Position numbers and translations under genes: made by a program. A DNA stretch of 30,703 nt. Source: a virus. Below are positions 2,639 through 24,393 of this stretch, piece after piece. The notes below the pieces were generated by a model that saw only the letters and a list, made by a program, of their open reading frames with translations, ran no database searches and was not told the DNA's origin. The stretch spans positions 1 to 30,703 of IMG/VR virus record IMGVR_UViG_3300026320_000021. One strand, 5' to 3'. Numbering within the stretch: the stretch's first letter is position 1; each line of letters opens with the position of its first letter.

Positions 2639-5600
2639 TTAATCATTTTTGCCACGCAAAGGACTCCACGCATCTCCACGCATGATCATCACGAGGCGTG
2701 AGAGTTCGAATCCGGCGCCAACGGCATTCGTGCTGAAAATCACGAACAAGCGGCTTCCTGCCTCATTGAGCGGCACTTCGATGTCTCCGTTCGTATCGAG
2801 CGGCAACGTCAGATTTGGAAGCAGTATATGCGAATACGGGGTATCCAGGGAATTCGGATATACCGTGATGGTCAGCGATCCCTGCCCTCCGATAATCAAC
2901 GTCATATAGTCGTAGACGAAACGCGTCACGCCCATCTGGCGACCTTCGCCAAGTTCCGAAGTCACGAATCCGGCCGTGGCGTAGAGTTGGCTAATGGCTG
3001 CGCCGTCATCTTCCAGCAAGCCAGCGACCAAGGCGAAGATTTTGCCGTTATGATCGGAATTCCCGAGGAACAGTTCTGACGTGGTATCCGGCCGCTCGAT
3101 GAATGCGGCGCAAGGCGCTTTGATGGTCCACAGCGACCATTTCCGCACGATGTCGGAGGCGATCAGTTTCCCGGAATAAGACCGATGGATCTGCACGCTG
3201 TCCATCAGGGCGCTCGCGGTATTCAATTGCTTGTAGTTCAGCTCAAGGATCATGTTTGGCGTGGTGGGATTATTGTCGGTGAGGAGTCCAGCGGGAAGCC
3301 ATGTGGGAGTTTCGTCGTCAGAATCCAGCGCTTTCAGCGGTACACCGACAAGAATTCTGCGGTTCTTGATGTCGTTCTTGACCCATATCGTATAGCCGTA
3401 GGTCCAGTTGATCTGGTCCCAGACGGACTGGATTTCTTCGCTAAGTTTCACTGGCTGGCTACCCTGGAACAGAAATAGCCCTGGAATCCCGGCAATCAGC
3501 GCCCATTCTTCGCCGGCGTTGGCTTCGTCGATGGCAAAAGTGACCGCATAGGGGCCCACGGTTCCGACGGACTGTGAAATCACCCGCGGTATCGTCCAAT
3601 TATTCGGTTCCGTGGAGTTGTTGTCGTTCACCGCCACCATCGATCCAGTCTTAACCATATAGAGCGTTCCAAACTGCACGAACGCGCTCTTCACCGGCTG
3701 CTGATTCTGCTGCGTGGCTAGGATCACTCCGGTCAAGCGGTCAAAGGACTCGAAATTGTTCTGATAGCTGCCGATGATTTGCCCGTTAAGATTTGGCAAC
3801 TCGGTCGGGAATGGCTCGATGCGATCAACCAATACTTGCACGCCATTCGGAAGATTCGTCGCATACAGGCGGATTTCTAGATCGTCTGGAACCGGCGCCA
3901 AAACCGTACGCAGCATGGTTCCGGTGAATATTTGCATGCTGGTCTGCATGGCGCCGAGGGATATGGTGTAAGTCCCGAGGGCAATCCCTAGTTTCGGGCT
4001 GAAGAGATCCACCACCAGACTTCCTCCGGAAGTTCCAGTAGGAACCGAGGCCGTCACACGCACGCTGTAGGTAGTCGATGCCTCAATGATGGGAACAAGG
4101 AATTCATCCTGGAAAGCGTTCTGGGTGATCATGCCGTAGATGGCTTGCGTAATGCCCGATGAGTTTTTGATCGAATAGGCGTTTCCGAAAATCGGCGAAG
4201 AGATGACGCTGCCGCCAGTTCCAGATGTCGGATCGACAACCCATCCGGCCGGATACTGCGTGGCCGCGATGATGCCTCCATCGAAAGAATAGTTGAGCAA
4301 GTTGTGGATTTTGTTCTGCTCGCCGATGGCAAAGAGGCGCTGCGCATAAGGCACCAAGGCCACCGAGCTGCCGAGTTCTCCGCACTCGAAAAGATTATTT
4401 CCTTCGATATCGATTTCATCGGCGGCCAGGAGCACGCCGTCTGAAAAACTCAAGACTACGTTTGTCGTGAAATTGTCATTGATCCACGTAGAACTGTTGA
4501 TGACATCAACGCCGTTGCTATTCACCGTCACGGGCACGGGAATGTTGTAGAAGTTTCCGCCGTTTGCCGCCGTGAGATGGATCACGCGCGCAATCACGTT
4601 TGAAGTTCCGGGTAGAAGATCCCCGATGACGATCCCGGAAGCTCCAGCGATGACATCGAAAGTAAGAATCGGCGAAGGCTGCGTCAGGAAGCCATTGCGC
4701 GTCAGGAATGAATAGCATACCTTGCGAATCCCTGCCGCAATGACTCCAATCGTGACGATGGTGCCGCCTGATCTGTCGCCGATGATCTGTAGTGGATCGA
4801 ACGTAAAAATAGTTCCGAAAATGATTCCTGCTCCGGTTTCCGCGGCACTTGTGACATCCGCATGGGTCACAGCGATGGAGAAAGAGCCTGGACTTGTCGA
4901 AGTGATCACCGCATTCGCCACATTGAAAATGCCGTTTCCATTCAGCGTGCTGGTCACCGTCACGAATTCACCGACAACTGGATTCGCTCCGGTGATTAGG
5001 TTGAATCCGTAGGTCGCTACATTGTTCAGCAGCACCGTCGAGGTAATCTGCATCTGCGCGGCGTTCGGAGTATCGATCACCGTCCATGGGCCGTCGTATC
5101 CCGCCAGGGGTGCGCCGCCGGTGCCAGCAAGCTGGAACTGGTTTCCGACTTCGAGATTGGGGATTTGCGCAGAAGTCGTCATTGTGGCAAGAGTGACTTG
5201 GTAGGCGGTTCCTGCTATCCCGCTATTTGGCGTGAACTGAATTCCGCTGGTGGTGGTTGGTCCCGTGACCGTGAAATACCAATGCGGATTGGAGAAATTT
5301 CCATTTGGCGGAACCCCCGAACCCACGCCAACGACCGTATATGTTCCATTGATTGGCTGATTCGTGTGACCGTTCAGAAATGGCAATCCCGTGATTTTTA
5401 TTCCCTGGCCTACCACAATGTGAGGATCGGCGGCTGCTAATCCAAAATTCACCCGCGAATAAAAGATAGTGATGGTGCTTCCAGGAGACATAGTGCTTGG
5501 CCCGGCAGACCAAAGCACCGCGCGAAATCCGCTGGTCTCGTTGTCATGCGTCACGGGAGGAAATTGCGTGATGGAAACAACTGTTTCCGAAGCCGATGTT

Positions 5601-7258
5601 GTCGATGCCGACGGCGGTGCGCCGGGGCCGACTTGCGATAGACGGTCAAAGTTTGGCGGCGTATAGGTATAGGGGATATCCGTGCCATTTTGGAGATTCG
5701 AGACAGCAATGAACTCACGGTCGTCGGCGGTCGCCGATTGCGCGAAGCTATCCGGCTCGATTGCCGAATAGACTGCCGTGAGCGCCCCCGGAAGAGTTTT
5801 CACATCTTCCTGATAGATCACTCCATCGCTGCCAAGAGCGAGCGTTAGCACTTCACCGCCAGTCTCTGAAAACGTCTTCAGGTAATTGAAATTTGGCGGT
5901 GGATTTGGACTCAGCCAAAGTTTAATTTTCACGGCATAAATATTGAACGTTACTATCGTGCCATCCACGGCACTAGCGACGATGGATACGCCAAAGTTCG
6001 GATTGTTCACGACTACTGGAGATAAGGTGAGCCCCCAAGTCGTTGTGGGATCTCCCAGAGTCAATGCTGTGCCATCCGCCAGGGGCAGTTGGCCAGTTTC
6101 CGTATCAGTACCTGCAGTCACCGACAAAATCGTTGACCCGGCCTGAGTTGATTGATTTCCGAATATTTCAACTTGAAATCCAGCGACATTTTGTGTTGAA
6201 GGAATCGAGAACTGATAATTAAGCGTCTGGAGGACTTCCGAATAAGGCGGTGACGACGTCAGAGGAATGAGATGCGTGACCTGATAGACGGCGAATCTGG
6301 ATTGCGCCGTGGCCGCAGGCGTATAGGAATAGGTCACATTGTGCCCAGCGGTATTCGCGACAGCGCTGCTGCAGATGTAGACCCAATCCATTGATCCGTA
6401 TATGCCGTTAAAGGTGGAGTGAAGCCCGGCGGCCAGCGTATAGACGTTTCCATTCGTATCGGTGAAGCTTGTTACCGTCTGTCCCACGGTAGAAAACATC
6501 TGGGACTGAATTATGGCGATGAGCGCTGCACCTGCCTGGACCGCAGCATTGCCAACCACAGCGTTGGTTCCGGAAGTTCCGATAATGTGAGTGACTACAG
6601 GCGTCGACCCATCCGTGGCGCAAGAGACGAGAACTCCGGAAGCTACCCCCTTATCTGAATTAGGACCTGAAAATTGCTGCGTTGTGGAAGTATTGATAGG
6701 CACATGCGCCGGAAATACGCCTTGTCCGGTAACAAACGCATTGTTGAGCGTGCCGGTAGGAAAAAGCGAAAAACCGGATGGCAGAGGAAGGCTTCCAACG
6801 AGCGGAAAAGCCCCTGTAAAACAGGCATCGATCATCACCCAGGAGAGCGCCGGTGGAGTAAGGGCCATTGCTAGATTTATAAAATTAGTGATTGCTTGTG
6901 TTCCGACCTGCTGATCAAAAGCATCTACAATTCCGGTGGCCAGCTGATTGAGGGTAACGTTTGCATATACACCGGGAGTATTCAGTTCAGCATTCGTTGG
7001 CGTCGCCCAAGGCTGTTCGTTCGGCGCGTGGACTCCGGCGACGGACTGCGCAAAGGTGGTCAGTTTTTCTATGAAAGTATTGCTGAAATAATACTGGCTT
7101 TGCTTTCCGGGACGCTGCAGGTTAGATCCCAAAATAAAATCGCAATTGATGACGAGGGGGCTTGCGCCCAGCGGAAGAGTCTCCGGCGTCGCTTCCGTGT
7201 ACAAGCCCCCGACCAATTCAAGAGGAACAGCTACATACGGTGGCTGCTTGGTAATCAA
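2639..7258 (-). CDS. Giant virion structural protein (tail or tail-tube-like), 1,539 aa
   Basis: The largest gene in the window. The N-terminus has an INCDF(x)nLQRPGKQ-type segment at about residues 37-53, as seen in phage tail or stopper proteins that open with a short 'source of values, then RPG' motif. The rest is Ser, Thr, Gly, Asn and Val rich with many beta strands and no coiled coil, so it is not a tape measure. The C-terminus (about 1,430-1,539) is a compact beta domain with a polar tail. No ATG occurs near the 5' end. The likely start is TTG at 7258, or the adjacent ATT, behind GGTGA. A strong hairpin ends about 10 bases upstream. Likely a tail tube, tail needle complex or receptor-binding assembly; the exact role is unknown. 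Confidence 0.75.
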   Translation of the reverse strand: MITKQPPYVAVPLELVGGLYTEATPETLPLGASPLVINCDFILGSNLQRPGKQSQYYFSNTFIEKLTTFAQSVAGVHAPNEQPWATPTNAELNTPGVYANVTLNQLATGIVDAFDQQVGTQAITNFINLAMALTPPALSWVMIDACFTGAFPLVGSLPLPSGFSLFPTGTLNNAFVTGQGVFPAHVPINTSTTQQFSGPNSDKGVASGVLVSCATDGSTPVVTHIIGTSGTNAVVGNAAVQAGAALIAIIQSQMFSTVGQTVTSFTDTNGNVYTLAAGLHSTFNGIYGSMDWVYICSSAVANTAGHNVTYSYTPAATAQSRFAVYQVTHLIPLTSSPPYSEVLQTLNYQFSIPSTQNVAGFQVEIFGNQSTQAGSTILSVTAGTDTETGQLPLADGTALTLGDPTTTWGLTLSPVVVNNPNFGVSIVASAVDGTIVTFNIYAVKIKLWLSPNPPPNFNYLKTFSETGGEVLTLALGSDGVIYQEDVKTLPGALTAVYSAIEPDSFAQSATADDREFIAVSNLQNGTDIPYTYTPPNFDRLSQVGPGAPPSASTTSASETVVSITQFPPVTHDNETSGFRAVLWSAGPSTMSPGSTITIFYSRVNFGLAAADPHIVVGQGIKITGLPFLNGHTNQPINGTYTVVGVGSGVPPNGNFSNPHWYFTVTGPTTTSGIQFTPNSGIAGTAYQVTLATMTTSAQIPNLEVGNQFQLAGTGGAPLAGYDGPWTVIDTPNAAQMQITSTVLLNNVATYGFNLITGANPVVGEFVTVTSTLNGNGIFNVANAVITSTSPGSFSIAVTHADVTSAAETGAGIIFGTIFTFDPLQIIGDRSGGTIVTIGVIAAGIRKVCYSFLTRNGFLTQPSPILTFDVIAGASGIVIGDLLPGTSNVIARVIHLTAANGGNFYNIPVPVTVNSNGVDVINSSTWINDNFTTNVVLSFSDGVLLAADEIDIEGNNLFECGELGSSVALVPYAQRLFAIGEQNKIHNLLNYSFDGGIIAATQYPAGWVVDPTSGTGGSVISSPIFGNAYSIKNSSGITQAIYGMITQNAFQDEFLVPIIEASTTYSVRVTASVPTGTSGGSLVVDLFSPKLGIALGTYTISLGAMQTSMQIFTGTMLRTVLAPVPDDLEIRLYATNLPNGVQVLVDRIEPFPTELPNLNGQIIGSYQNNFESFDRLTGVILATQQNQQPVKSAFVQFGTLYMVKTGSMVAVNDNNSTEPNNWTIPRVISQSVGTVGPYAVTFAIDEANAGEEWALIAGIPGLFLFQGSQPVKLSEEIQSVWDQINWTYGYTIWVKNDIKNRRILVGVPLKALDSDDETPTWLPAGLLTDNNPTTPNMILELNYKQLNTASALMDSVQIHRSYSGKLIASDIVRKWSLWTIKAPCAAFIERPDTTSELFLGNSDHNGKIFALVAGLLEDDGAAISQLYATAGFVTSELGEGRQMGVTRFVYDYMTLIIGGQGSLTITVYPNSLDTPYSHILLPNLTLPLDTNGDIEVPLNEAGSRLFVIFSTNAVGAGFELSRLVMIMRGDAWSPLRGKND

Positions 7259-11713: not shown

Positions 11714-12235
11714 TCATGAATCCCAATTCGCCACCATCAGTTTCATTTCGTCAAACGTCAAATTGTTTTTCGAGCGGTTCGCTTTGTAACTTATGACTCT
11801 GACGTTTTCTTTCACGTAGCCCCTGGACCCATCGCGCCTGTCAAGCGTCGGGCTGTTGTCCTGCAAAACTCTACCGCTTTGGAACAGAGGAATTCTCAAC
11901 ATCGGACAAAGCGTCGGGATTACGACATCAGTTACATCAATATTGAACGGCAGCCCTTTCTCTCGCGCTCGATGCTTGGCCATTTGCCACATGATGTATT
12001 CTGGCGTCCTGGATTTTCCGTGCTTGAAATTGCATTTGCCGCGCACTTCCCTCGAATAGCAACCACAACTAGTACTTCCGCCAGAGGTTAAATTTGCGAC
12101 CGATGTAGTCACAAGACCTCCGCACTCACAAGAACAAAGCCAATGGTACATCCTGGCTTTGCCAACATATCCTACGAACCACCGTGCGGTTAGCCTTCCA
12201 AAAATGCGGCCAGTCAAATCTAAAATCTTTGCCAT
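11714..12235 (-). CDS. Free-standing homing-endonuclease-like protein (HNH/NUMOD-like)
   Basis: A 173-residue protein. The N-terminal domain (about 5-60) has GRIFGRLT, a W(x)CSCECG zinc-like cluster and SCGC, as in DNA-binding NUMOD/AP2-type modules attached to mobile endonucleases. The C-terminal half has SPTLDRRDGSRGYVKENV near residue 128 and SYKANRSKNN (about 149-158), matching the LDRxDxxxGYVxxNVxxIS block of phage HNH-like nucleases. It sits between the capsid gene and the GroES-like gene. It has a strong AGGAG site and a hairpin upstream, so it looks like an inserted selfish gene. Catalytic residues were not verified beyond the motif. Confidence 0.72.
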   Translation of the reverse strand: MAKILDLTGRIFGRLTARWFVGYVGKARMYHWLCSCECGGLVTTSVANLTSGGSTSCGCYSREVRGKCNFKHGKSRTPEYIMWQMAKHRAREKGLPFNIDVTDVVIPTLCPMLRIPLFQSGRVLQDNSPTLDRRDGSRGYVKENVRVISYKANRSKNNLTFDEMKLMVANWDS

Positions 12236-12327: not shown

Positions 12328-13665
12328 TTAACTCGTAACAGAAGGCACGGCTGCACCGGAAATATACAGACCTGCCTTCAGTGAGGAATTGTACAAATTT
12401 AGAAACGCGTTGTAAAAAAAGATCGAAGACGTGAGGTAGCTTCCCTGACCAACGTAATCGGGAATCGGCATGGTGGTGACGCCGTCGCCGAAATCGTAGA
12501 GCGATGGCTCGACGGTTTCGACGATGCCCCAAGTCTCGGGACAGATCGCGTCAAGGCGCCCTTGCTTCGCGGTGTAGGCCACATTCAAATCACGCCCGCC
12601 AAATTGCGGCGACATGTGCTTCTTGACCATGTCTAGTGCCTTGTCGCCTGGCGGGACGTAGTTCTGTTGCAGCACGTTCGTATAGAGTTGCGTGACGGCC
12701 AGCTCCTGATCCGGCCCGCAGACCCACTCGAAGTCTGCCACCGCCTCGTTGTCGGCGCCCAGCCCGCGGCCAATCAGGATCTCAGCCTTGTACGGATCGG
12801 TGGTGTTGATGGGAGCATTTGCCTTAGCAATGTTTGGCGTCGAGAGTTGGCCAGGGTAAGTCGAGCGGGATAGATTCAGAATCGTGCCCGTATTCGACGC
12901 CACTTGGTAGGTGTACAGTCCCGCAAGCCCGCTGTTCAGCGCTCCTGAAGAGCCCTGAATCATCACGAAGTCGCCAGCAGCAGAGCTGGTTGGCAAAGCC
13001 GTCGAGAAAAACACCGTGTCTGCCGCACCATCGACATAAGACACTGTCGCCGTCGCTGGCGTGATGCGAGCTGTTCCGCCTTCCGTCGGGAAGAACTGAA
13101 CGACTTGCTGCTCTTGGAATTGGTTTGCCTGGCCACCGAGACCCACGATGCTCGATGGATTCGCACCACCCAGCGTGTTGTTGTTGACCGTGGCGGTGGT
13201 GGGAATCTGCAGGATGGCTCCGGAACCGTCGCTCAAGAATTGCGCGTCGAGGCCTTGCATGAAGGAGTTGAAAGAGTTCTTCAGCTCTTCAGCGCGCAGG
13301 CTGATCAGACTGCGCTTCGGACCACTCGTGGCGATCCTCGCGAGATAGGTAATCTCTGTCCCGGCAAAGAGTCCGATGGGAGAAATATCCCCGGCCACCC
13401 AGTTCGAGCCAGTCCCGCGGCCCAAAGCATCACCGTTTCCGGTAGCTTGGAAGATTGCCGCACCAGACTGAATGCGCACAGGAATGCGGAAAGACGGTCG
13501 CGAAGTGCCGCCAGCTTGCGTGGTGACGGAAGTCGGGAAGGTTTTGCTCTTCTTTTTGATAAGGTTATAAAAAGTTCTGCCTTTGTACACCAAATCAGGA
13601 ATGCCTTTTGCAAAATTTTCCAACTCGACGGCCTGGACGGCCGCCTCTTGTAGGGGCGATGCCAT
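12328..13665 (-). CDS. Major capsid protein (HK97-fold type, inferred)
   Basis: The 445-residue protein lies downstream of portal and scaffold, the standard place for the major capsid protein, with GAGGTACGAGT as binding site. A basic N-terminal helix region (LVYKGRTFYNLIKKK, about 26-39) precedes RPSFRIPVRIQSG (about 56-68), a capsid-like N-arm and E-loop pattern. LISLRAEELKNSF (about 118-130) resembles the spine helix. Two segments recur elsewhere in this genome: GRGTGxxWxAG at 82-92 and LYDFGDGVTTMPIPD at 389-403. Its C-terminus is hydrophobic and beta-like. Family assignment is by size, order and pattern, not by alignment. Confidence 0.82.
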   Translation of the reverse strand: MASPLQEAAVQAVELENFAKGIPDLVYKGRTFYNLIKKKSKTFPTSVTTQAGGTSRPSFRIPVRIQSGAAIFQATGNGDALGRGTGSNWVAGDISPIGLFAGTEITYLARIATSGPKRSLISLRAEELKNSFNSFMQGLDAQFLSDGSGAILQIPTTATVNNNTLGGANPSSIVGLGGQANQFQEQQVVQFFPTEGGTARITPATATVSYVDGAADTVFFSTALPTSSAAGDFVMIQGSSGALNSGLAGLYTYQVASNTGTILNLSRSTYPGQLSTPNIAKANAPINTTDPYKAEILIGRGLGADNEAVADFEWVCGPDQELAVTQLYTNVLQQNYVPPGDKALDMVKKHMSPQFGGRDLNVAYTAKQGRLDAICPETWGIVETVEPSLYDFGDGVTTMPIPDYVGQGSYLTSSIFFYNAFLNLYNSSLKAGLYISGAAVPSVTS

Positions 13666-15615: not shown

Positions 15616-15879
15616 TTAAGATTTTCCTCTGTTGAATCCGTTAATGAATCGTTTAATGAGAGCTTCATCTGAAAGGACCAACATTTCTTCGGGTACTTCC
15701 ATGATGGCAACAACGTGCTTGCCACTAAAATGCATCTCCAATTCGCTATTCAGAACTCTGACCGTTCCTGCAGCCCAAAAATTTCCAGTACCCCTTCCCA
15801 TCTCTTCACCTTCTACCGCCGTTTGAGAAAGTGAAGCACCTTGCATCAGTCTGATTGCAACCCCTTGAGTTTCTGTCAT
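15616..15879 (-). CDS. Small protein sharing a capsid motif, 87 aa
   Basis: I place the start at ATG 15879, with a GGGAG site 8 bases upstream, just after the portal stop. Longer openings would run into the portal gene in another frame. The protein has the segment MGRGTGNFWAAGTV (27-40), which closely matches the capsid segment LGRGTGSNWVAGDI (81-94). Its C-terminal half is helical and charged, ending KRFINGFNRGKS. Function unknown; see the finding on shared capsid segments. It lies between portal and scaffold. Confidence 0.7.
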   Translation of the reverse strand: MTETQGVAIRLMQGASLSQTAVEGEEMGRGTGNFWAAGTVRVLNSELEMHFSGKHVVAIMEVPEEMLVLSDEALIKRFINGFNRGKS

Positions 15880-15892
15880 TTGCTTACTCCCA

Positions 15893-18457
15893 CTAGAGTT
15901 TGGGTCGACCGCCTGCGTTTTCTGGGGCTCCTGTAGGAAGCGGTGCTGCTGGCGGTGCTGCTGCCCCTTCCGCCGCTGCTGGGACGGGTGCTGGAGTACC
16001 AGCGCCAGGAGATGGAGTAATGCCTGCTTTTGAAAGGATCTGCTGTGCCGCATTTGAATCAATTTGTGCAACATCTTTGTATCCCACCGAGACACTCGGC
16101 GGCTTCCCGGCCGGTGCGGTTTGCGCAGCCTTGGCCTGCACGGCTTGAACGTGCATTTCGTAGTGTAAAGCTACATTCTTGAATCCTTCTGGATTAGAAC
16201 GCTTTGCCCGCCGTCCTTCGACTGAGTTCAGATATTGCCAACAAGTGGCAGCCTCGGTGTCATTATCATCGGTCTTTTCGTCGATTGGTAATGAACTAAT
16301 TTCAGGCGGCATGGCCGCGACTTGCTGCTCGGCAGCGGCGAGTTCTTGTGGATCGACACCAGCCATCTTCATCTGCTCTATCTTTTGTGTGGCTTCTTCC
16401 ACCTGCGGATTGGGAACCGGGATGCTCTTCAGTAGCACTTCGATTTCGCCAAGTTGCTTGTTGCGCGAAGCCACCTGCGGAATGTAGAGGTCGGAGAGGC
16501 CCATCATGTTTTGCAGGAATTCGAGATTCGCGGCGTTGAAGAAAACTTCCTGCAACATTGGGTTCTTTCCGATGTCGTTGAAGATATTCATGATCGCGTT
16601 CTTGCGCTGTGTGTAGGTTTCAGGGAAGTTCTCGTCGCTCTCGGCAAACACCATGATGTTGGCTTTGAGATCGTTGATCTCAAGAGCGATGGTTTCCCCG
16701 CCAGGAATCCGTTCATTGATGGATTTGTCGCGGCACTTCGCAGCCCAGCGCACTAACTGCTTCATCGAAGTGGCTTCGGCATTCTTCATGGAATGCCACG
16801 TCGGCGCTAGTCTGCCTAGAGCGGAATCACGTTGGGTGGCAATCGCAACTCCGCTATCGGCGGTTCCGACATCTCCTCCAGCAAGGGCCGGATACGCTCC
16901 CGACAGCAATTCGGCAAGTGGCCCGGAATATTCTTTGATGAAGTCCGCGAGATTCGCCGGCGGATTTACGGCCGGTTCTACGAAGATCAATTCATTGACC
17001 GCAATCCCTGGCTGGCGCTTGAACGATCCGATATCTCCGGGAACGTTGGTTTGCTGGCGGATGGCTTCGACGGCAAAGGCTTTCGAGTCCATCCATTTCT
17101 TCGGGATAGTGCGCACGAAAATGTCGTTCATCAAATCCAGCCAATTGTTCAGCCGCTTCTGCAAGGGCATCGTCGACGTGCCCATGGCGTTGCGGTTCTG
17201 TCCATCTCCGGAATAAGCCTGAGCCAATGCCCATGAGTCGTCCATCGACTCGTTGCGCGCAAAACAGAAAGTGTCTCCGGCAAAAACTACATAGCAGCCG
17301 TTCGGAAACATCTCGATCAATTCATCGCGCTTATTCTCATCCGTGATGCCCATCAGATACGAAGGGCGCATCCAAGTGCGTTGAATGGTGACATCGGCAG
17401 CGATTGAATCGCTCGTCACATAAGTGGACTGCATTCCCAACTTGACGTTCTGGCGCGCGAGACGGGCGATCTCACCCATGGCTGCTTGATTCGTGGCCGC
17501 CTTGATGTCATCGGCAACCCACGGGAACATGCCTTTGGCACGTGTCTCGTCTACTTCGCACTCGTACTGCAGCACATCCACTTCATCCAAACTATTCGCC
17601 ATCATCGGCGTCAACTTGATTTCCAGCTTTCCGTGCGCGGTGCGGACTTCTTGCCCTCGTGGCGTGCGCTTGACCGGCTCCGATTCTTCTCCTTCTTCTT
17701 CCGTTTCTTTCTCTTCATCTGTGGCGGGCGGCGCGCCAGGACTTTCTTGGGCAGTCTCAGCCGATTCCGGAGTTGATGCAGCCGCTGCTCCTTCAACTGG
17801 CGTCCCTTCGTTTTCCGGCACCAGGTCATCTGGCTCATCATCCTCTTCCCATCCGAAGCGCTGGCCATCCTTCACGAAACGCGACCAGTAGAGATAGCGT
17901 CCGTCGGTCCACAGATAGCGCGCGGCATCGGTCTGAATTTGGACCAAATCATTGTTGCGCGAAATGACTTTAACGAACTTCTCGGCTGATTCAGCGGAGG
18001 TAATCTGCGCATCAGAGTCGGCGCGCTGTGGAGCGAAACGCACGTTCGGCACGGTGCGCGTGAGTGCGGCGATGATCATCTGCGCGCGTGCGGAATAAAC
18101 ATTCGTCGGGAGGAGAGACAAGTCCATCTGCATCGATGGCCCGTAACCGGTACTCTCGCCCGGGATAATCCATCCGCCGCCGCGTTGCGGAATGAGAAAT
18201 TGAAATCCGCGAAAAAATAAACAGCACTCCCAACAGGCTATAATTTCGATCAATCTTGCGGGGTAGTCGCGCTTCGCCGCCACCTTGCAGCGATCCTTTA
18301 GAAGATTTTCTTGTTCTTTGGTAAGTTCCGCGTTGGGGACAGTGGAGAATTCTAATCCTGCGAGGACACCGATTTTATATTTAGGCTCATCGTGCTCTTG
18401 GGTGTCGCGACCTTCTTGCTCGTCGCTGCCCGTAAAGTTTTGGACCGCTGTCGCCAA
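15893..18457 (-). CDS. Portal protein, large, with acidic insert
   Basis: A 854-residue protein starting at TTG with a strong GAGGAG site 5 bases upstream; no ATG lies near. It follows terminase genes and precedes scaffold and capsid, so it is the portal, the dodecameric ring through which DNA is packaged. Seen: an N-terminal helical part, an acidic, Pro-, Glu- and Ala-rich insert at about 204-262, and QRTWMRPSYLMG at about 360. RNAMGTSTMPLQKRLNNWL lies near 430. A C-terminal coiled region leads to a Pro/Ala-rich tail (about 790-854). The size and long C-terminal helical part suit a P22-like portal. The exact family was not confirmed. Confidence 0.8.
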   Translation of the reverse strand: MATAVQNFTGSDEQEGRDTQEHDEPKYKIGVLAGLEFSTVPNAELTKEQENLLKDRCKVAAKRDYPARLIEIIACWECCLFFRGFQFLIPQRGGGWIIPGESTGYGPSMQMDLSLLPTNVYSARAQMIIAALTRTVPNVRFAPQRADSDAQITSAESAEKFVKVISRNNDLVQIQTDAARYLWTDGRYLYWSRFVKDGQRFGWEEDDEPDDLVPENEGTPVEGAAAASTPESAETAQESPGAPPATDEEKETEEEGEESEPVKRTPRGQEVRTAHGKLEIKLTPMMANSLDEVDVLQYECEVDETRAKGMFPWVADDIKAATNQAAMGEIARLARQNVKLGMQSTYVTSDSIAADVTIQRTWMRPSYLMGITDENKRDELIEMFPNGCYVVFAGDTFCFARNESMDDSWALAQAYSGDGQNRNAMGTSTMPLQKRLNNWLDLMNDIFVRTIPKKWMDSKAFAVEAIRQQTNVPGDIGSFKRQPGIAVNELIFVEPAVNPPANLADFIKEYSGPLAELLSGAYPALAGGDVGTADSGVAIATQRDSALGRLAPTWHSMKNAEATSMKQLVRWAAKCRDKSINERIPGGETIALEINDLKANIMVFAESDENFPETYTQRKNAIMNIFNDIGKNPMLQEVFFNAANLEFLQNMMGLSDLYIPQVASRNKQLGEIEVLLKSIPVPNPQVEEATQKIEQMKMAGVDPQELAAAEQQVAAMPPEISSLPIDEKTDDNDTEAATCWQYLNSVEGRRAKRSNPEGFKNVALHYEMHVQAVQAKAAQTAPAGKPPSVSVGYKDVAQIDSNAAQQILSKAGITPSPGAGTPAPVPAAAEGAAAPPAAPLPTGAPENAGGRPKL

Positions 18458-18466
18458 GAGGACTCC

Positions 18467-18661
18467 TCAGTGCTTTCTAGCGGAAGCAAAGGCAGCGGCC
18501 AATCTAGCGCGCTTGCCGACTTTCCCGCTGCTGTGAAGATGCTCGCGTGTGAATTCAGAAGTGCTCTTGCCTGCGCGTTTTGCGGCCGCACTGAACTTTC
18601 CTTCGGTACCTTTGGATTTCATTTCTTTCTTGACGCCAGACATCCAGCGGTTAGAGGCCAT
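18467..18661 (-). CDS. Small basic phage protein, 64 aa
   Basis: Starts at ATG behind AAAGGTGA and overlaps the end of the 123-residue gene by 11 bases. It is rich in Lys, Arg, Ser and Ala (VKKEMKSKGTEGKFSAAAKR, TSEFTREHL). This layout (KGTxGxFxxxAKxxGKSxxEF) resembles a short protein I have seen next to portal or terminase genes in phage genomes. It may bind DNA or help packaging; no experiment known to me is cited. Ends 9 bases before the portal start. Confidence 0.72.
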   Translation of the reverse strand: MASNRWMSGVKKEMKSKGTEGKFSAAAKRAGKSTSEFTREHLHSSGKVGKRARLAAAFASARKH

Positions 18662-19022
18662 GGGTCACCTTTCTGCTGGCATTCTCCAAACAGGTTGCTG
18701 CTTCAGCATCGAATCGCTTCACTGCTTCTGCGAGTCTTTCAAGGATATCGGTGCTGTCGATGATGCTCTTCCTTGGTCCTCCATGGCGATTTTTGCATTT
18801 AATCTCGAATCCCAAGAAGAGAGTTCCTTCAAGATTTTGGAGAAATGCAATCGAGGTAGACAGGTAGGTTCCCTCATCTTTCATGTCAGGGATCGGCATG
18901 ACTGTAACTGAATCTCCAAAATCGTAGAGTTTCAGATGGGGCGGAATCGCTGCGGCAAAAGCACGCTCCTCGCGCTCCTCTTCGGCTACGATTGCCGCAC
19001 ATCTTTCGCAGAGAATATTCAT
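18651..19022 (-). CDS. Small protein with a capsid-derived segment, 123 aa
   Basis: Starts at ATG behind a strong AAGGAG site, with a CERC pair at residues 5-8 that could bind metal with partners further on. Residues 32-46 (LYDFGDSVTVMPIPD) and 51-60 (GTYLSTSIAF) match the C-terminal part of the capsid protein. At DNA level the shared region (about 18850-18935 against 12420-12500) is colinear and has 9-11 base identical blocks such as AAATCGTAGAG. Its C-terminal half is charged and helical. Function unknown. It lies between the HiPIP-like protein and the 64-residue protein. Confidence 0.75.
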   Translation of the reverse strand: MNILCERCAAIVAEEEREERAFAAAIPPHLKLYDFGDSVTVMPIPDMKDEGTYLSTSIAFLQNLEGTLFLGFEIKCKNRHGGPRKSIIDSTDILERLAEAVKRFDAEAATCLENASRKVTHGL

Positions 19023-19025
19023 GGT

Positions 19026-19250
19026 TCACTCCTTCACGAGATTCGCGAGAGAATTCTTGGGCATGTACCAGTCACTGCAATATTGGTCGGCTGGAGCTGG
19101 CAGGCGCGTCGAGCCGTTCCACTTGACGAAATATTTGTTGATGCAACTCTCTTCATCGCTCCCCAGGAATTTGCAGTTCTTGCACATTGATCCGCCCTTG
19201 GGCACGCGCATTCCGGCTCGATGGCCTGGCGGATAAGTCGCTTCAGCCAT
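19026..19250 (-). CDS. Small four-cysteine protein, HiPIP-like
   Basis: A 74-residue protein starting at ATG that overlaps the end of the upstream gene by 8 bases. Cysteines lie at CKNC (22 and 25-26 region), ESC (about 36) and QYC (about 58), with conserved-looking surroundings (GMRVPKGGSMCKNCKFL, KWNGSTRLPAPADQYCSDW). This C-x2-C-xn-C-xn-C spacing and the LPAPxDxYCSDW ending resemble small iron-sulfur (HiPIP-like) or zinc proteins seen in phages. Cofactor and function are not determined. Ends 3 bases before the next gene. Confidence 0.7.
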   Translation of the reverse strand: MAEATYPPGHRAGMRVPKGGSMCKNCKFLGSDEESCINKYFVKWNGSTRLPAPADQYCSDWYMPKNSLANLVKE

Positions 19251-19587
19251 CGAGTACTTCTACTTGTCCAAGATTTTTGATCTTCGCTACTACTTCAGTG
19301 TCACGGCGCAATTCTATTTCATTTTCTGGCATCGTTGAATCCTGTACGATTGGAAACCCGCAAAGTTTATTCACTGGATGATATAGCGCAGAATCTCCTG
19401 CTAATGAAACGTGGACGACATTGGTAATTTTGATTTCCGTCATATTAACAATCGCCAATTCTTGCATCGGATGCAATCGCCAGTAGAAATCTCCGTAGGT
19501 GCGCAGTAGTTCCACGAGAGTCGTGGAGACAGTTTGGAGGGTGATGGTAGAGCCACCAGCATCGACGAGGATAGGTTTATCAGCCAT
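19243..19587 (-). CDS. Unknown protein, 114 aa
   Basis: Starts at ATG and overlaps the end of the 126-residue gene by 8 bases. The ribosome binding site is weak, so coupling is likely. The sequence is mixed beta (ITLQTVSTTLVELLRTY, EIKITNVVHVSLAG), ending with charged beta strands (IELRRDTEVVAKIKNLG). No membrane segment, metal motif or known family. It sits in the cluster between large terminase and portal, where small packaging or assembly genes are common. Confidence 0.65.
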   Translation of the reverse strand: MADKPILVDAGGSTITLQTVSTTLVELLRTYGDFYWRLHPMQELAIVNMTEIKITNVVHVSLAGDSALYHPVNKLCGFPIVQDSTMPENEIELRRDTEVVAKIKNLGQVEVLDG

Positions 19588-19960
19588 TGGCGGATTTCGC
19601 GCTCCACGGCAAAGGGATTCCTGCGCGATAATTCAAGAGCCGCTCTTCGGCTTCGCGAAGCTTCTCATTCAATTCCTCGAAAGTGGCGAAGTGATTGATC
19701 ACTACCGTGGTCACGAACCATCCGTTGCCCATGGCAATGACATCGCCTTCTTTGCTAGGCAATGGCCCGTCGTATGTTGGTCTTTCTGTGCCGCGAAGCA
19801 CGGGGAAAACAGCAGTTTGCGTCAGGTATTCGCCTTTAGCGTTCACCATCGGGACTTCGTTCAGCCCGGTGCCGAAATCGAATAGCGTGAAGTCGTGGCG
19901 GTTTGAAGCGTAGTCGTAGAGCAACTGGCTTCTTCGCGCTTCTTCCATTGATTGCCTCAT
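19580..19960 (-). CDS. Small protein with a capsid-like motif, 126 aa
   Basis: Starts at ATG overlapping the TGA of the upstream gene (ATGA). Residues 26-52 (LFDFGTGLNEVPM, then KGEYLTQTAVF) resemble the capsid C-terminal segment and the matching segment of the 123-residue protein, with a few residues missing in the middle. The nearby DNA also shares GCCGAAATCG with the capsid gene. The C-terminal part is helical and charged (FEELNEKLREAEERLLNY). Function unknown; possibly an assembly or decoy protein. See the finding on capsid-derived segments. Confidence 0.7.
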   Translation of the reverse strand: MRQSMEEARRSQLLYDYASNRHDFTLFDFGTGLNEVPMVNAKGEYLTQTAVFPVLRGTERPTYDGPLPSKEGDVIAMGNGWFVTTVVINHFATFEELNEKLREAEERLLNYRAGIPLPWSAKSANG

Positions 19961-20941: not shown

Positions 20942-21126
20942 GGCAACTCCTTCACGTCTGGCAATTTTTCCAGTAGATCATCCCAAATCATGTGGTAACA
21001 AATTGCTGACAGAAGCCTGTTCTCTTGCTCTGTTGGCTCTCTTTTAAAAATGATAATTTCACAGAGCATGCGCACGTCATCATCAGAAAGTTTTACACAC
21101 ATTGGTTTAGAGGTATCGACAATCAT
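20878..21126 (-). CDS. Small protein after the large terminase, 82 aa
   Basis: I place the start at ATG 21126, which overlaps the TGA of the large terminase (ATGA). Longer openings would run into the terminase. It has a helical core (LSDDDVRMLCEIIIFKR, EQENRLLSAICYHMIWDDLL) and a polar, Ser- and Asn-rich end that overlaps the next gene. Translation is probably coupled to the terminase. Function unknown. Confidence 0.65.
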   Translation of the reverse strand: MIVDTSKPMCVKLSDDDVRMLCEIIIFKREPTEQENRLLSAICYHMIWDDLLEKLPDVKELPCPDSGSVATTKNGSKSNSRN

Positions 21127-22724
21127 TGTCCTAACCTGTGTTGCCAGCTCGGCACGATCTTCCCGCCGCCGTGCCCTTTGCGTGCGGCAGCCTGTTCCTC
21201 GTTCCATTCCCGATACATCGCTACATGTCTGGCCATGGGGTCTTTGATCCCAGCCAACTTCTCGCGGAGCAATTGTTCCTTAGGTTTGTCGGCTGCGTCA
21301 AGGAGAACGCCAGCGACTGCGTATCTCATCGAATCGCCGCAATCATCAATGAGACTTGCGCCCTTTGGTTTTATGACATCTTCCATATTTGTTTTGACGC
21401 CATCGCCGCGCACGAGCAATGGAATTGCTTCCACGCAATTTGGACATTCGCCCTGTAACAGAAACCATTCGTCCATTTCGAGCAGAGAATACATTTTCGT
21501 CCAGCCGGCCACGCGATCCGTATTTGATCGGGTAGGCCGCGGGAGTCCAGCCGCCGCAAGCAAATCCCCGATCTCATCAGCAACGGTGCGATTACTTACT
21601 GTACGATTGAAGCGCTCCCAAGAAAGATGGACGCTGTCAATTTCCCACGCATAGCCAGTTTGCGTTCCATGCTCATCAAAGACTGGAGGAATTGCGGCAA
21701 TCAATGCCTTAGTCTGATCTTCAGGAGTTTTATCGTTTAGATCTGACTGTCCCCCAGCAAGAACAAGCTCCTTCCTAGTCACGTTCACGATGCGCGGTTT
21801 CTCGCCTTCGAATCTTGGTTTTAAGAGTGCTTTCGTCCAAAATGTGATGACGGACCAATGTCCGAACCCCCAATCCCAGCCAATCCAAGTGGGCTGCCAC
21901 GGCTCAAAGATAAACGCTTCTTTCGGCATGATATGACGCGATGGCTCGAAATTCGCGAAATACTGGCCACTGACCGTCTCGATATTGCCCCAGCGGATTT
22001 TGTCGCGCAGTGGAGATTTTTCCAGCGAGGCAATGTACGCTTTGTCTTGGCCCAGGATGGGATTCTGATCGACTGTCGAGTGAATAAACTGGTAGTCGTT
22101 CGGATCGTACTTCTCCGGGTCCATGCCGTGCGTCGGCAAATGATCGACCCACAAGCGCTTGATCCAGCCCCAGCCGATGCCCATTGGGTTTGTTACGCCA
22201 GCCATGCATGGACGTGAGCCAGGTATCGTGCATCGATTGCGCCCTTCCATCGCGTCGTAGATCATGTAAGGGAATTCGCCAAGCTCCTCGAAGCCGATGA
22301 AAACAAACTCGGTCGAAAGATATTTGCCGACATCCTCAACGCGCTCGCATGCTGCGAAATAAAGTTTGCTCTGCTTTCCGTTCACTGGCGGGAAGTACAC
22401 GATGTGATCTGACTTGTTGAAGGTGCCGCGCTCTTGCGAGCCGCGCTCGTAGAGAGACTTTGGAACATCCGCCAAAAATTTATCGATTACAGTTCTCTTT
22501 AAGTCGGGCACAGTTTTGCGCATCAGAATTGAATTGCTGCCGGGGTATTCCATGCAGTGAAAGATTGCTTCCATCAGCAGCGGCCGACTTTTTCCAGAAC
22601 CGAACGAACCCACGTGCAAGCGGTGCTTTGCATTCATGCAATGGAAGATCTGCTGGTGACTCCACGGCTGATAGAAGTCTGTAATCTTGAGTACTTGATC
22701 GGGACGGTGCTGCTTGAGATTCAC
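21123..22724 (-). CDS. terL: Large terminase subunit (ATPase and nuclease)
   Basis: The 533-residue protein is the packaging motor. Walker A is GSFGSGKS at 39-46, Walker B is VFIGFEE at 141-147, and a likely coupling motif is AGVTNP at 175-180. The nuclease half has WIGWDWG (Asp284), EIDSVHLSW (Asp363) and SLIDDCGDS (Asp460, Asp461 and Asp464), consistent with an RNase H-like active site. It starts at GTG, the first start after an in-frame TAG 12 bases earlier, and no good ribosome binding site is visible. It follows a terminator-like hairpin. Unlike many phages, its small terminase partner lies about 3.5 kb upstream. Confidence 0.93.
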   Translation of the reverse strand: MNLKQHRPDQVLKITDFYQPWSHQQIFHCMNAKHRLHVGSFGSGKSRPLLMEAIFHCMEYPGSNSILMRKTVPDLKRTVIDKFLADVPKSLYERGSQERGTFNKSDHIVYFPPVNGKQSKLYFAACERVEDVGKYLSTEFVFIGFEELGEFPYMIYDAMEGRNRCTIPGSRPCMAGVTNPMGIGWGWIKRLWVDHLPTHGMDPEKYDPNDYQFIHSTVDQNPILGQDKAYIASLEKSPLRDKIRWGNIETVSGQYFANFEPSRHIMPKEAFIFEPWQPTWIGWDWGFGHWSVITFWTKALLKPRFEGEKPRIVNVTRKELVLAGGQSDLNDKTPEDQTKALIAAIPPVFDEHGTQTGYAWEIDSVHLSWERFNRTVSNRTVADEIGDLLAAAGLPRPTRSNTDRVAGWTKMYSLLEMDEWFLLQGECPNCVEAIPLLVRGDGVKTNMEDVIKPKGASLIDDCGDSMRYAVAGVLLDAADKPKEQLLREKLAGIKDPMARHVAMYREWNEEQAAARKGHGGGKIVPSWQHRLGQ

Positions 22725-23096: not shown

Positions 23097-23357
23097 TTAC
23101 TCGCCACGTATCTCGGCTCTTGGGCCAACTGCGATGAAATTCACTGCGTTCGGAAGGAGAATAACCTGTTTGAACTCCAGTACAGGGAATTTCTTGTCGA
23201 TGTATTCGATGGCGCGCTCAAGAATCCCTTCGATGTCCAACTCGCTGTAGCCATTCCCTGCCGGGGCCACGAACTGATGGCGCAAGGTCTTATCGCCCAC
23301 GATCACCTTGACCGTCACGCGCTTCCAAAGTTTCTTTCCGTCTTTCGCTGGCTTCAT
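23097..23357 (-). CDS. Unknown small protein next to the PP-loop enzyme, 86 aa
   Basis: I place the start at ATG 23357, which overlaps the TGA of the PP-loop enzyme (ATGA). A GTG six bases earlier is also possible. The chain starts basic (MKPAKDGKKLWKRVTVKVIVG). It then has a mixed alpha/beta middle (DIEGILERAIEYIDKKF) and an acidic/basic end. The coupling suggests it works with or is co-regulated with the enzyme. Function unknown. Confidence 0.68.
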   Translation of the reverse strand: MKPAKDGKKLWKRVTVKVIVGDKTLRHQFVAPAGNGYSELDIEGILERAIEYIDKKFPVLEFKQVILLPNAVNFIAVGPRAEIRGE

Positions 23358-24193
23358 TCGCACAATCCATACTTCGATTCACAGGACTGTGGCTCCTGCA
23401 AGATTGGGAAAACAGATTGCCTTCCCCCGCGCGATGTTTTGGCCCAAGCCACGACATCATCAACAAAATTGAGAACCATTCCTGGCACGCATGGAGCGAA
23501 GAATGTTTTACCAACGCTACGCTCCCAGTCGCGGACTTTGTCGATCATCTCTGGGAAGCGCAGCGCCCAATTTGTGATGTCATCCTTCCCGCTATTGATG
23601 CAGGGCGCACAGCCCACGCGATTGAATCCAAGGGTGTATAGCGGATTGATTGGTTGCCCAGAGCGCTTCACATAATCGAAGCATTCTTGCTTCGTCCAAG
23701 TCACGATTGGGTTGACAAGCCAGCAATCAAAGAAATCGTCCCATTCCCGAGGCTGACGAGAGGCACGAGCCGCTGACTCATCGTTTCTAATTCCGGAGAC
23801 TCTTTCGTACTCGTCGGCAACGTTCTCGCCAATCCATCTTCGGATCGGGCGAAGCTTCAAAAACTCCGTACAGAACTGTGCGCGGCGAGACGGGAATCTA
23901 TGCTTCCATTTGGCCAGTTCTTCGAATGTCAATTCCTCGTTGGCTCGTGGAATCAAAGATGCCACTTCATTCCGGCCAGGGCCGTACCATATGTCTGAAA
24001 TACGGGGCGTCACAACTTCAATGTGGCAAACGGTTCTAGAAATTTCCGCGACATGCGCGACTGTTAAGGGGTGCTCGTTCCGTCCTGCCTGCGTGTTGAC
24101 CGCCATCACATCGGCAGGATCATAGTTTTCAAGCGACCACAGAAGCGCGGCCTGCGAATCAATTCCACCGCTATAGCCAACGATATATTTCAT
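23354..24193 (-). CDS. PP-loop enzyme, PAPS reductase/DndC-like
   Basis: I place the start at ATG 24193, which overlaps the previous TGA (ATGA). Residues 7-14 (YSGGIDSQ) are the PP-loop that binds ATP-derived nucleotides in the PAPS reductase/adenine nucleotide alpha hydrolase superfamily. Further conserved-looking parts are QFCTEFLKLRP (106-116) and GCAPC (194-198). Cysteines at 108, 195, 198 and 271 could hold an iron-sulfur cluster, as in the phosphorothioation enzyme DndC. Phage members of this superfamily have unclear roles; DNA or nucleotide modification and counter-defence are ideas only. The 279-residue length fits the family. Confidence 0.82.
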   Translation of the reverse strand: MKYIVGYSGGIDSQAALLWSLENYDPADVMAVNTQAGRNEHPLTVAHVAEISRTVCHIEVVTPRISDIWYGPGRNEVASLIPRANEELTFEELAKWKHRFPSRRAQFCTEFLKLRPIRRWIGENVADEYERVSGIRNDESAARASRQPREWDDFFDCWLVNPIVTWTKQECFDYVKRSGQPINPLYTLGFNRVGCAPCINSGKDDITNWALRFPEMIDKVRDWERSVGKTFFAPCVPGMVLNFVDDVVAWAKTSRGGRQSVFPILQEPQSCESKYGLCE

Positions 24194-24393
24194 GGACGTG
24201 GCCGATGCACTTTGCAGCCCCAACTTCTGAAGAATGGATTGCGCTCGACTTTATCGCAGCGCCGGCAAGTCCAGAAACAGTCTGCGCATCCGCAGTCTAA
24301 TCGGATAACGCTGCTGTCCCACTTGTGCCCCAACTTCCGGCAGAAGAATGCCTGGACGCGCGAAAATAAAATTTCTCTCCAATTGCTCGTCAT
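24190..24393 (-). CDS. Small zinc-ribbon-like protein, 67 aa
   Basis: I place the start at ATG 24393 because it overlaps the preceding TGA (ATGA); an in-frame GTG 27 bases earlier is possible. The protein has CGCADC and CRRC clusters (about 35-50) with a His and a basic C-terminus (GCKVHRPRP), so it may bind zinc and nucleic acid. It sits directly before the PP-loop enzyme and is probably translated with it. Its function is unknown. Confidence 0.68.
   Translation of the reverse strand: MTSNWREILFSRVQAFFCRKLGHKWDSSVIRLDCGCADCFWTCRRCDKVERNPFFRSWGCKVHRPRP

Follow-up and report, generated by a model that had tools for sequence, protein, structure and literature searches.

Small proteins with segments of the major capsid protein in the late head operon of an IMG/VR virus

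Why would a phage carry pieces of its major capsid protein in separate small proteins? The question is raised by the IMG/VR virus record IMGVR_UViG_3300026320_000021, positions 1 to 30,703 of which (30,703 nucleotides; "the window", meaning the whole stretch analyzed) encode two small proteins, s1 and s2, placed between the large terminase gene terL and a gene regarded as the portal gene from its size and position. An initial annotation had reported this placement, which holds, and had noticed that a C-terminal segment of the capsid protein reappears in both proteins. The observation is confirmed here and is real, and the pattern is wider than first described, as further small proteins carry different capsid segments. 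The features compared are as follows (aa, amino acids; dN and dS, nonsynonymous and synonymous divergence).

12328..13665, minus strand: major capsid protein, 445 aa, the source of the segments (NCBIfam, PHROG, gene order)
12415..12501, minus strand: capsid codons 389-417, the segment common to s1 and s2 (conservation in relatives)
18651..19022, minus strand: s1, 123 aa, with an N-terminal CxxC and the capsid C-terminal segment in residues 32-60 (blastp, profile-profile comparison, dN/dS)
18843..18929, minus strand: capsid-like segment of s1, codons 32-60
19580..19960, minus strand: s2, 126 aa, with a degenerate form of the capsid segment (profiles, dN/dS)
19805..19885, minus strand: capsid-like segment of s2, codons 26-52 (profile-profile comparison with capsid and s1)

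The capsid C-terminal segment in s1 and s2

The 445-aa protein is taken as the major capsid protein because of a match to the NCBIfam model capsid_maj_Podo (E 9e-8, under that model's own cut-off), weak matches to PHROG "major head protein" families, and gene order. Residues 32-60 of s1 (LYDFGDSVTVMPIPDMKDEGTYLSTSIAF) pair gaplessly with capsid residues 389-417 (LYDFGDGVTTMPIPDYVGQGSYLTSSIFF), with 19 of 29 positions identical. The match is supported by blastp among the 458 open reading frames (ORFs) of the window (E 5e-9) and by profile-profile comparison (E 1.3e-14), and the s1 segment retains the capsid-specific loop residues MPIPD and GxYLT. The s1 of one relative, L003, holds a 15-residue stretch (LYDFGDGVTTMPIPD) that is the same as in the window capsid. 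The likeness of s2 to the capsid segment is significant with profiles only (E 1.6e-5 against the capsid and 4.3e-8 against s1), and "degenerate form", as it was first called, is a fair description, though blastp among the window ORFs gives no pairwise match to the capsid at the segment site (E 6.9) and E 0.01 against s1. Both genes are preceded by a ribosome-binding-site-like sequence, a clear AAGGAG for s1 and a weaker AGAAAGG for s2.

In both proteins the likeness to the capsid ends at the segment borders. The remaining sequence is unrelated to the capsid and has no match in Pfam, PHROGs, NCBIfam, PDB, or cultured phages, and tblastn searches of cultured phages returned nothing for s1 and nothing significant for s2. 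The initial annotation had made its case depend on a profile match that reaches beyond a short motif; the match stays confined to a segment of about 30 residues, yet it is highly significant. A common origin of the segment, which it had proposed for s1, is well supported there and less so for s2. The colinearity it had described at the DNA level, including the identical blocks that it named, is present over 87 nucleotides of the capsid and s1 segments, 56 of which are identical; blastn alone is weak (E 0.005), and identity to the phage's own capsid gene is not high even over this best segment. Among the aligned codons, 9 are identical, 10 synonymous, and 10 nonsynonymous, which corresponds to a dS of about 2.2 and a dN of 0.31.

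Age, distribution, and relation to the capsid of the same genome

Comparison with relatives gives dN/dS values of 0.14 for s1 (against L003) and 0.17-0.23 for s2 (against L003 and L011). The window and L004 give 0.48 for s1 and 0.22 for s2, but are so closely related that these values are not firm. Within each protein, the segment and the remainder evolve at about equal rates. The two genes are old and functional, are under purifying selection, and are not fresh copies; because synonymous sites are saturated and selection is purifying, the segment represents an old, maintained protein similarity rather than a recent DNA copy.

The gene s1 is carried by L002/L004, L003, and, in a diverged form (30% identity), L019, and s2 by L002/L004, L003, L011, and L056. 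Possible very diverged s1 relatives lie at L010:1052-1384, L013:2574-2963, and L094:3656-3907, and the scores back only parts of them. Being present in few relatives, s1 and s2 are not conserved in all members alongside the capsid, as a cement or minor capsid protein would be. The C-terminal segment itself is kept in the capsids of all relatives and is strongly conserved in 23 of them. The direction of transfer was probably from capsid to small gene, because the capsid is universal and the small genes are sporadic.

The initial annotation had proposed to check whether the segment co-varies with the capsid. It does not: every relative's capsid keeps the segment, and the small protein does not follow. 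The s1 of L019 is without the insertion seen in the L019 capsid and better fits the capsids of a clade that is about 50% diverged (score 104 vs 71; own capsid at rank 39 of 45), and therefore does not follow the capsid encoded in the same genome. Co-evolution expressed as a preference for the own capsid was tested and was absent in most cases.

Other small proteins with other capsid segments

A profile built from 43 related capsids was compared with 11,803 unique ORFs. Beyond capsids and capsids that are interrupted or cut by contig ends, the profile matched small ORFs to separate capsid regions. The s1 family matched in the C-terminal segment (E 9e-9 to 5e-6), and the other matches are listed below; the putative labels N-arm, E-loop, and spine follow the sequence order in HK97-type capsids.

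L054/L052:876-1244: N-arm-like (capsid N-terminal region), E 3e-7 and 1e-6
L015:2645-3004: N-arm-like, E 4e-6
L029:1626-1991: N-arm-like, E 7e-6
L010:1786-2319: N-arm-like, E 8e-5
L029:1435-1644: E-loop-like, E 7e-3
L074:2864-3193: spine-helix-like, E 8e-4
15616..15879 of the window, minus strand: E87, 87 aa, similar to capsid residues about 60-138, which cover an E-loop-like stretch and the beginning of the next helix
13252..13488 of the window, minus strand: capsid codons 60-138, common to E87

E87 matches the capsid by blastp among the window ORFs (E 6.6e-5) and by the capsid profile (E 6e-5 in the window and 1e-3 among all ORFs), and has its own ribosome-binding-site-like sequence. A search of 40 whole contigs returned the same set and one further weak match, G013/L123 (E 0.005). 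All partial capsid matches, those in the 40 whole contigs included, fall between terL and the scaffold gene. In L010, the N-arm and spine pieces occur in capsid order with the intervening part missing. Inspection by eye showed weak E-loop-like motifs in L026 and L086 as well, which do not enter the count.

Several partial matches were set aside as parts of interrupted or contig-end capsids (L024, L025, L026, L030, and L104), as was the N-terminal match in L044, which belongs to that contig's interrupted capsid gene. The capsid gene is interrupted near residue 103 in L025 (9947-11994) and L026 (9998-11973) and near residue 30 in L044 (2902-4981). In all three, the gap holds an extra ORF with the look of an intron or homing element; for those of L025 and L044, Pfam gives no convincing match.

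The four confident N-arm-like contig families each have the piece in a protein with a signal resembling those of twin-arginine translocation (Tat). The N-arm and spine pieces follow a conserved N-terminus, RRxFLR..LGVAAATALPSEVWPFRKIFLP. The Pfam model TAT_signal scores just or well under its cut-off in L015, L029, L054, L074, and L010, and NCBIfam TAT_signal_seq passes for L010; the Pfam model scores over its cut-off in L009, L011, L116, and L118, which have no confident capsid piece. Capsid pieces stand behind the Tat-like N-terminus in L015, L029, L052/L054, L010, and L074, and probably in L086 and L123, and the capsid profile search detected none in L009, L115, L116, and L118. Small Tat-signal ORFs follow terL in L009, L010, L011, L015, L029, L052, L074, L115, L116, and L118; their N-terminus is nearly fixed and the remainder very variable. 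The L004 s1 has about 28 additional N-terminal residues that include a twin arginine (MNRRNLIKSAAM...), in which Pfam calls no Tat signal.

Controls

Profiles of the portal, terL, and scaffold proteins, run against the same ORFs, found no partial copies other than contig ends and, for terL, far relatives. Reversed ORFs gave a best E of 2.2 against the capsid profile. When all small ORFs between terL and scaffold were compared with all large proteins, the sources of partial matches were the capsid and one tail-fibre-like C-terminal domain only, once the many matches between ordinary family members of differing length or antisense frames had been set aside. This domain lies in small pre-portal proteins of L084 (3359-4006), L085 (3382-3984), L088 (4035-4385), L089 (3785-4087), and L094 (4587-5219). 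In BPP-1, epsilon15, lambda, T7, P22, and HK97, no small ORF matched the phage's own capsid (best E 0.4 or worse, with single sequences, which are less sensitive than a profile).

No fragment derives from capsid residues about 166-385, roughly half of the protein, though conservation there reaches, in places, the level of the N-terminal region. It is strongest in the C-terminal and E-loop-like regions, and the C-terminal segment has the highest mean conservation (0.75) among the regions compared.

Head-gene neighborhood and cassette insertions

The gene order in the window is terL, small genes, a portal-size protein, an acidic scaffold-like protein, and the capsid. The portal and scaffold labels are putative, assigned from size, composition, and position. 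The genes in question, other than those already listed, are as follows.

21123-22724: terL (Pfam Terminase_3, E 2e-10)
19243..19587, minus strand: x114, small gene without capsid similarity; exact indel, absent in L004
19026..19250, minus strand: c74, cysteine-rich small protein upstream of s1, conserved in several relatives
18467..18661, minus strand: k64, basic protein of 64 aa, encoded between s1 and portal and found in nearly all relatives
15893-18457: putative portal, 854 aa (size and position)

Three of the small genes are clean single-gene indels between terL and scaffold. Compared with L004, the window additionally has E87, inserted exactly between the portal stop codon and the ribosome-binding-site-like sequence of the scaffold gene, and x114, which enters at the start codon between s2 and c74; compared with L011, it additionally has s1, fitted exactly between the stop of c74 and the start of k64. 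The presence of the small genes is sporadic among relatives that have the core head genes in common, and the insertions resemble those of morons in this respect. The presence of k64 before the portal is far more constant than that of its neighbors.

The 854-aa protein has no significant match in Pfam, PHROG, or NCBIfam. The L004 portal ORF (4457-5686) is extended at its N-terminal end by a region, absent from the window portal, that contains a LAGLIDADG-like domain (Pfam E 1.4e-6), matches Hint weakly, and is probably an intein. Immediately downstream of the capsid, a 173-aa protein (window 11714-12235) has the look of an HNH-type homing endonuclease by eye and no Pfam match, and the window also encodes a PAPS-reductase-domain protein (23354-24223, Pfam E 1.2e-21).

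Relatives of the capsid at 42-100% identity occur in IMG/VR contigs. None was found in a bacterial and archaeal genome collection, and tblastn against cultured phages gave nothing significant. A kinship to the BPP-1 and epsilon15 capsids was considered and rejected, as hhalign showed no relation, and profile searches of PDB with the capsid, s1, and s2 gave nothing relevant.

Capsid mimicry and alternative explanations

We tentatively favor, at slightly less than an even chance, the explanation that the small genes form moron-like accessory cassettes, of one gene each, in the late head operon, and that the capsid segments kept in them act as capsid mimics. Segments of capsid genes would have been captured into small accessory genes, and the kept segment would let the small protein mimic the capsid and occupy whatever normally makes contact there. 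Candidate partners are a neighboring capsid subunit or scaffold, from the phage itself or from a competitor, and a capsid-sensing host protein. A broader proposal, which is somewhat doubtful, is that the lineage maintains a changing set of capsid-mimic genes with different segments that would control assembly of its own or rival capsids or blunt capsid-sensing immunity. The interpretation offered in the initial annotation is partly supported by these results, and the capsid-binding and assembly-decoy roles that it had proposed stay among the candidates.

Several points weigh against mimicry. The segment mostly matches other capsids equally well as, or better than, that of its own genome, and the predicted Tat-like signal of the N-arm group does not fit a cytoplasmic capsid partner. 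Binding by the segment proteins is a prediction, unsupported by the low-confidence AlphaFold2 models (predicted local distance difference test, pLDDT, 41.9 for the capsid and 45.8 for s1). E87, the E-loop-like ORF of L029, L074, and s2 are individually weak cases, and detection bias contributes to the choice of regions, conserved ones being easier to detect.

The main rival, which we regard as rather unlikely, is fragment capture without mimicry, in which fast-evolving small genes took pieces of their neighbors by illegitimate recombination and kept a stable hairpin or helix for an unrelated function. Protein-fragment shuffling is described as common in phages (PMC10684548). The tail-fibre-like C-terminal domain that small proteins of L084, L085, L088, L089, and L094 carry in this interval points the same way, as do the very variable C-terminal parts of the Tat-signal family, several without detectable capsid similarity. 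Such capture does not account for the strong over-representation of the capsid as a source, with portal, terL, and scaffold absent, or for the retention in s1 of MPIPD and GxYLT, which a generic hairpin would not need.

The small proteins might instead be immune decoys that show capsid epitopes to capsid-triggered host defense proteins and so prevent a response to the real capsid. Capsid proteins are increasingly recognized as triggers of bacterial immunity: SECPhi27 Gp57 sets off CapRel-SJ46, and the short Gol peptide of T4 Gp23 sets off Lit (PMC9712102). Individually gained and lost cassettes together with conserved capsid segments would fit an arms race. Neither host nor defense system is known for this lineage, however, the Tat-like signals would send some of the proteins out of the cytoplasm, and a trigger piece could equally activate the sensor; decoys are distinctly unlikely as the explanation.

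Convergence, by which capsid and small proteins would have reached the same short motif independently through a common partner, appears less likely still. It is consistent with a likeness limited to about 30 residues in otherwise unrelated proteins, with the saturation of synonymous sites, which leaves the DNA without independent proof of descent, and with the much weaker motifs in the s1-like proteins of L010, L013, and L094. It accords poorly with the gapless identities between s1 and the capsid and with the L003 stretch that equals the window capsid, and it would need separate repeats for the N-arm, E-loop, and spine segments.

That the pieces are recombination donors, as the initial annotation had allowed, or debris of an extra capsid gene is extremely improbable: pieces from several capsid regions, and the L010 pair in capsid order, would fit such an origin, but it is contradicted by the selection and codon data (amino acids kept at saturated synonymous sites), and also by the ribosome-binding-site-like sequences, exact cassette boundaries, unrelated flanking protein sequence, and an L019 copy closer to the capsids of other phages than to its own.

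If the small proteins are mimics, phages would be turning parts of their own shell protein into separate tools, and capsid surfaces that are recognized by something else would be marked by the conserved segments. Named small genes are now at hand for ideas of decoy or interference. Even with fragment capture alone, the major capsid gene would repeatedly have supplied material for new small genes.

Comparison with known systems

No description of small proteins made of capsid segments was found in the literature searched, which reached few subscription papers, and the pattern is undescribed as far as checked. Phage protein-fragment shuffling similarly places common fragments in otherwise unrelated proteins, but the major capsid protein is not among the hotspots in the portion of that account consulted (PMC10684548). 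CapRel-SJ46 with Gp57 and Lit with Gol are alike in that the partner recognizes the major capsid protein by a short or local part; these are host proteins that sense the real capsid, whereas the window phage encodes separate proteins with capsid pieces. Tab, a small phage-encoded protein that blocks virion assembly, offers a parallel in that the window proteins could interfere with the assembly of rivals, but its target is the tail, and the abstract does not present it as built from a piece of that target (PMC10884400).

Head proteins that are additional to the major capsid protein and in contact with it include T4 gp24, a paralogue of gp23 over its full length, BPP-1 bbp16, and epsilon15 gp10. 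Unlike such minor capsid paralogues and cement proteins, the proteins described here have 20-80 residues in common with the capsid and are sporadic. Morons are similar as single small genes that are cleanly inserted at gene boundaries and sporadic among relatives; classical morons have their own promoter and terminator, and the HK97 annotation lists moron products. The small proteins of the window differ from morons in that part of one of the phage's own core proteins recurs in them.
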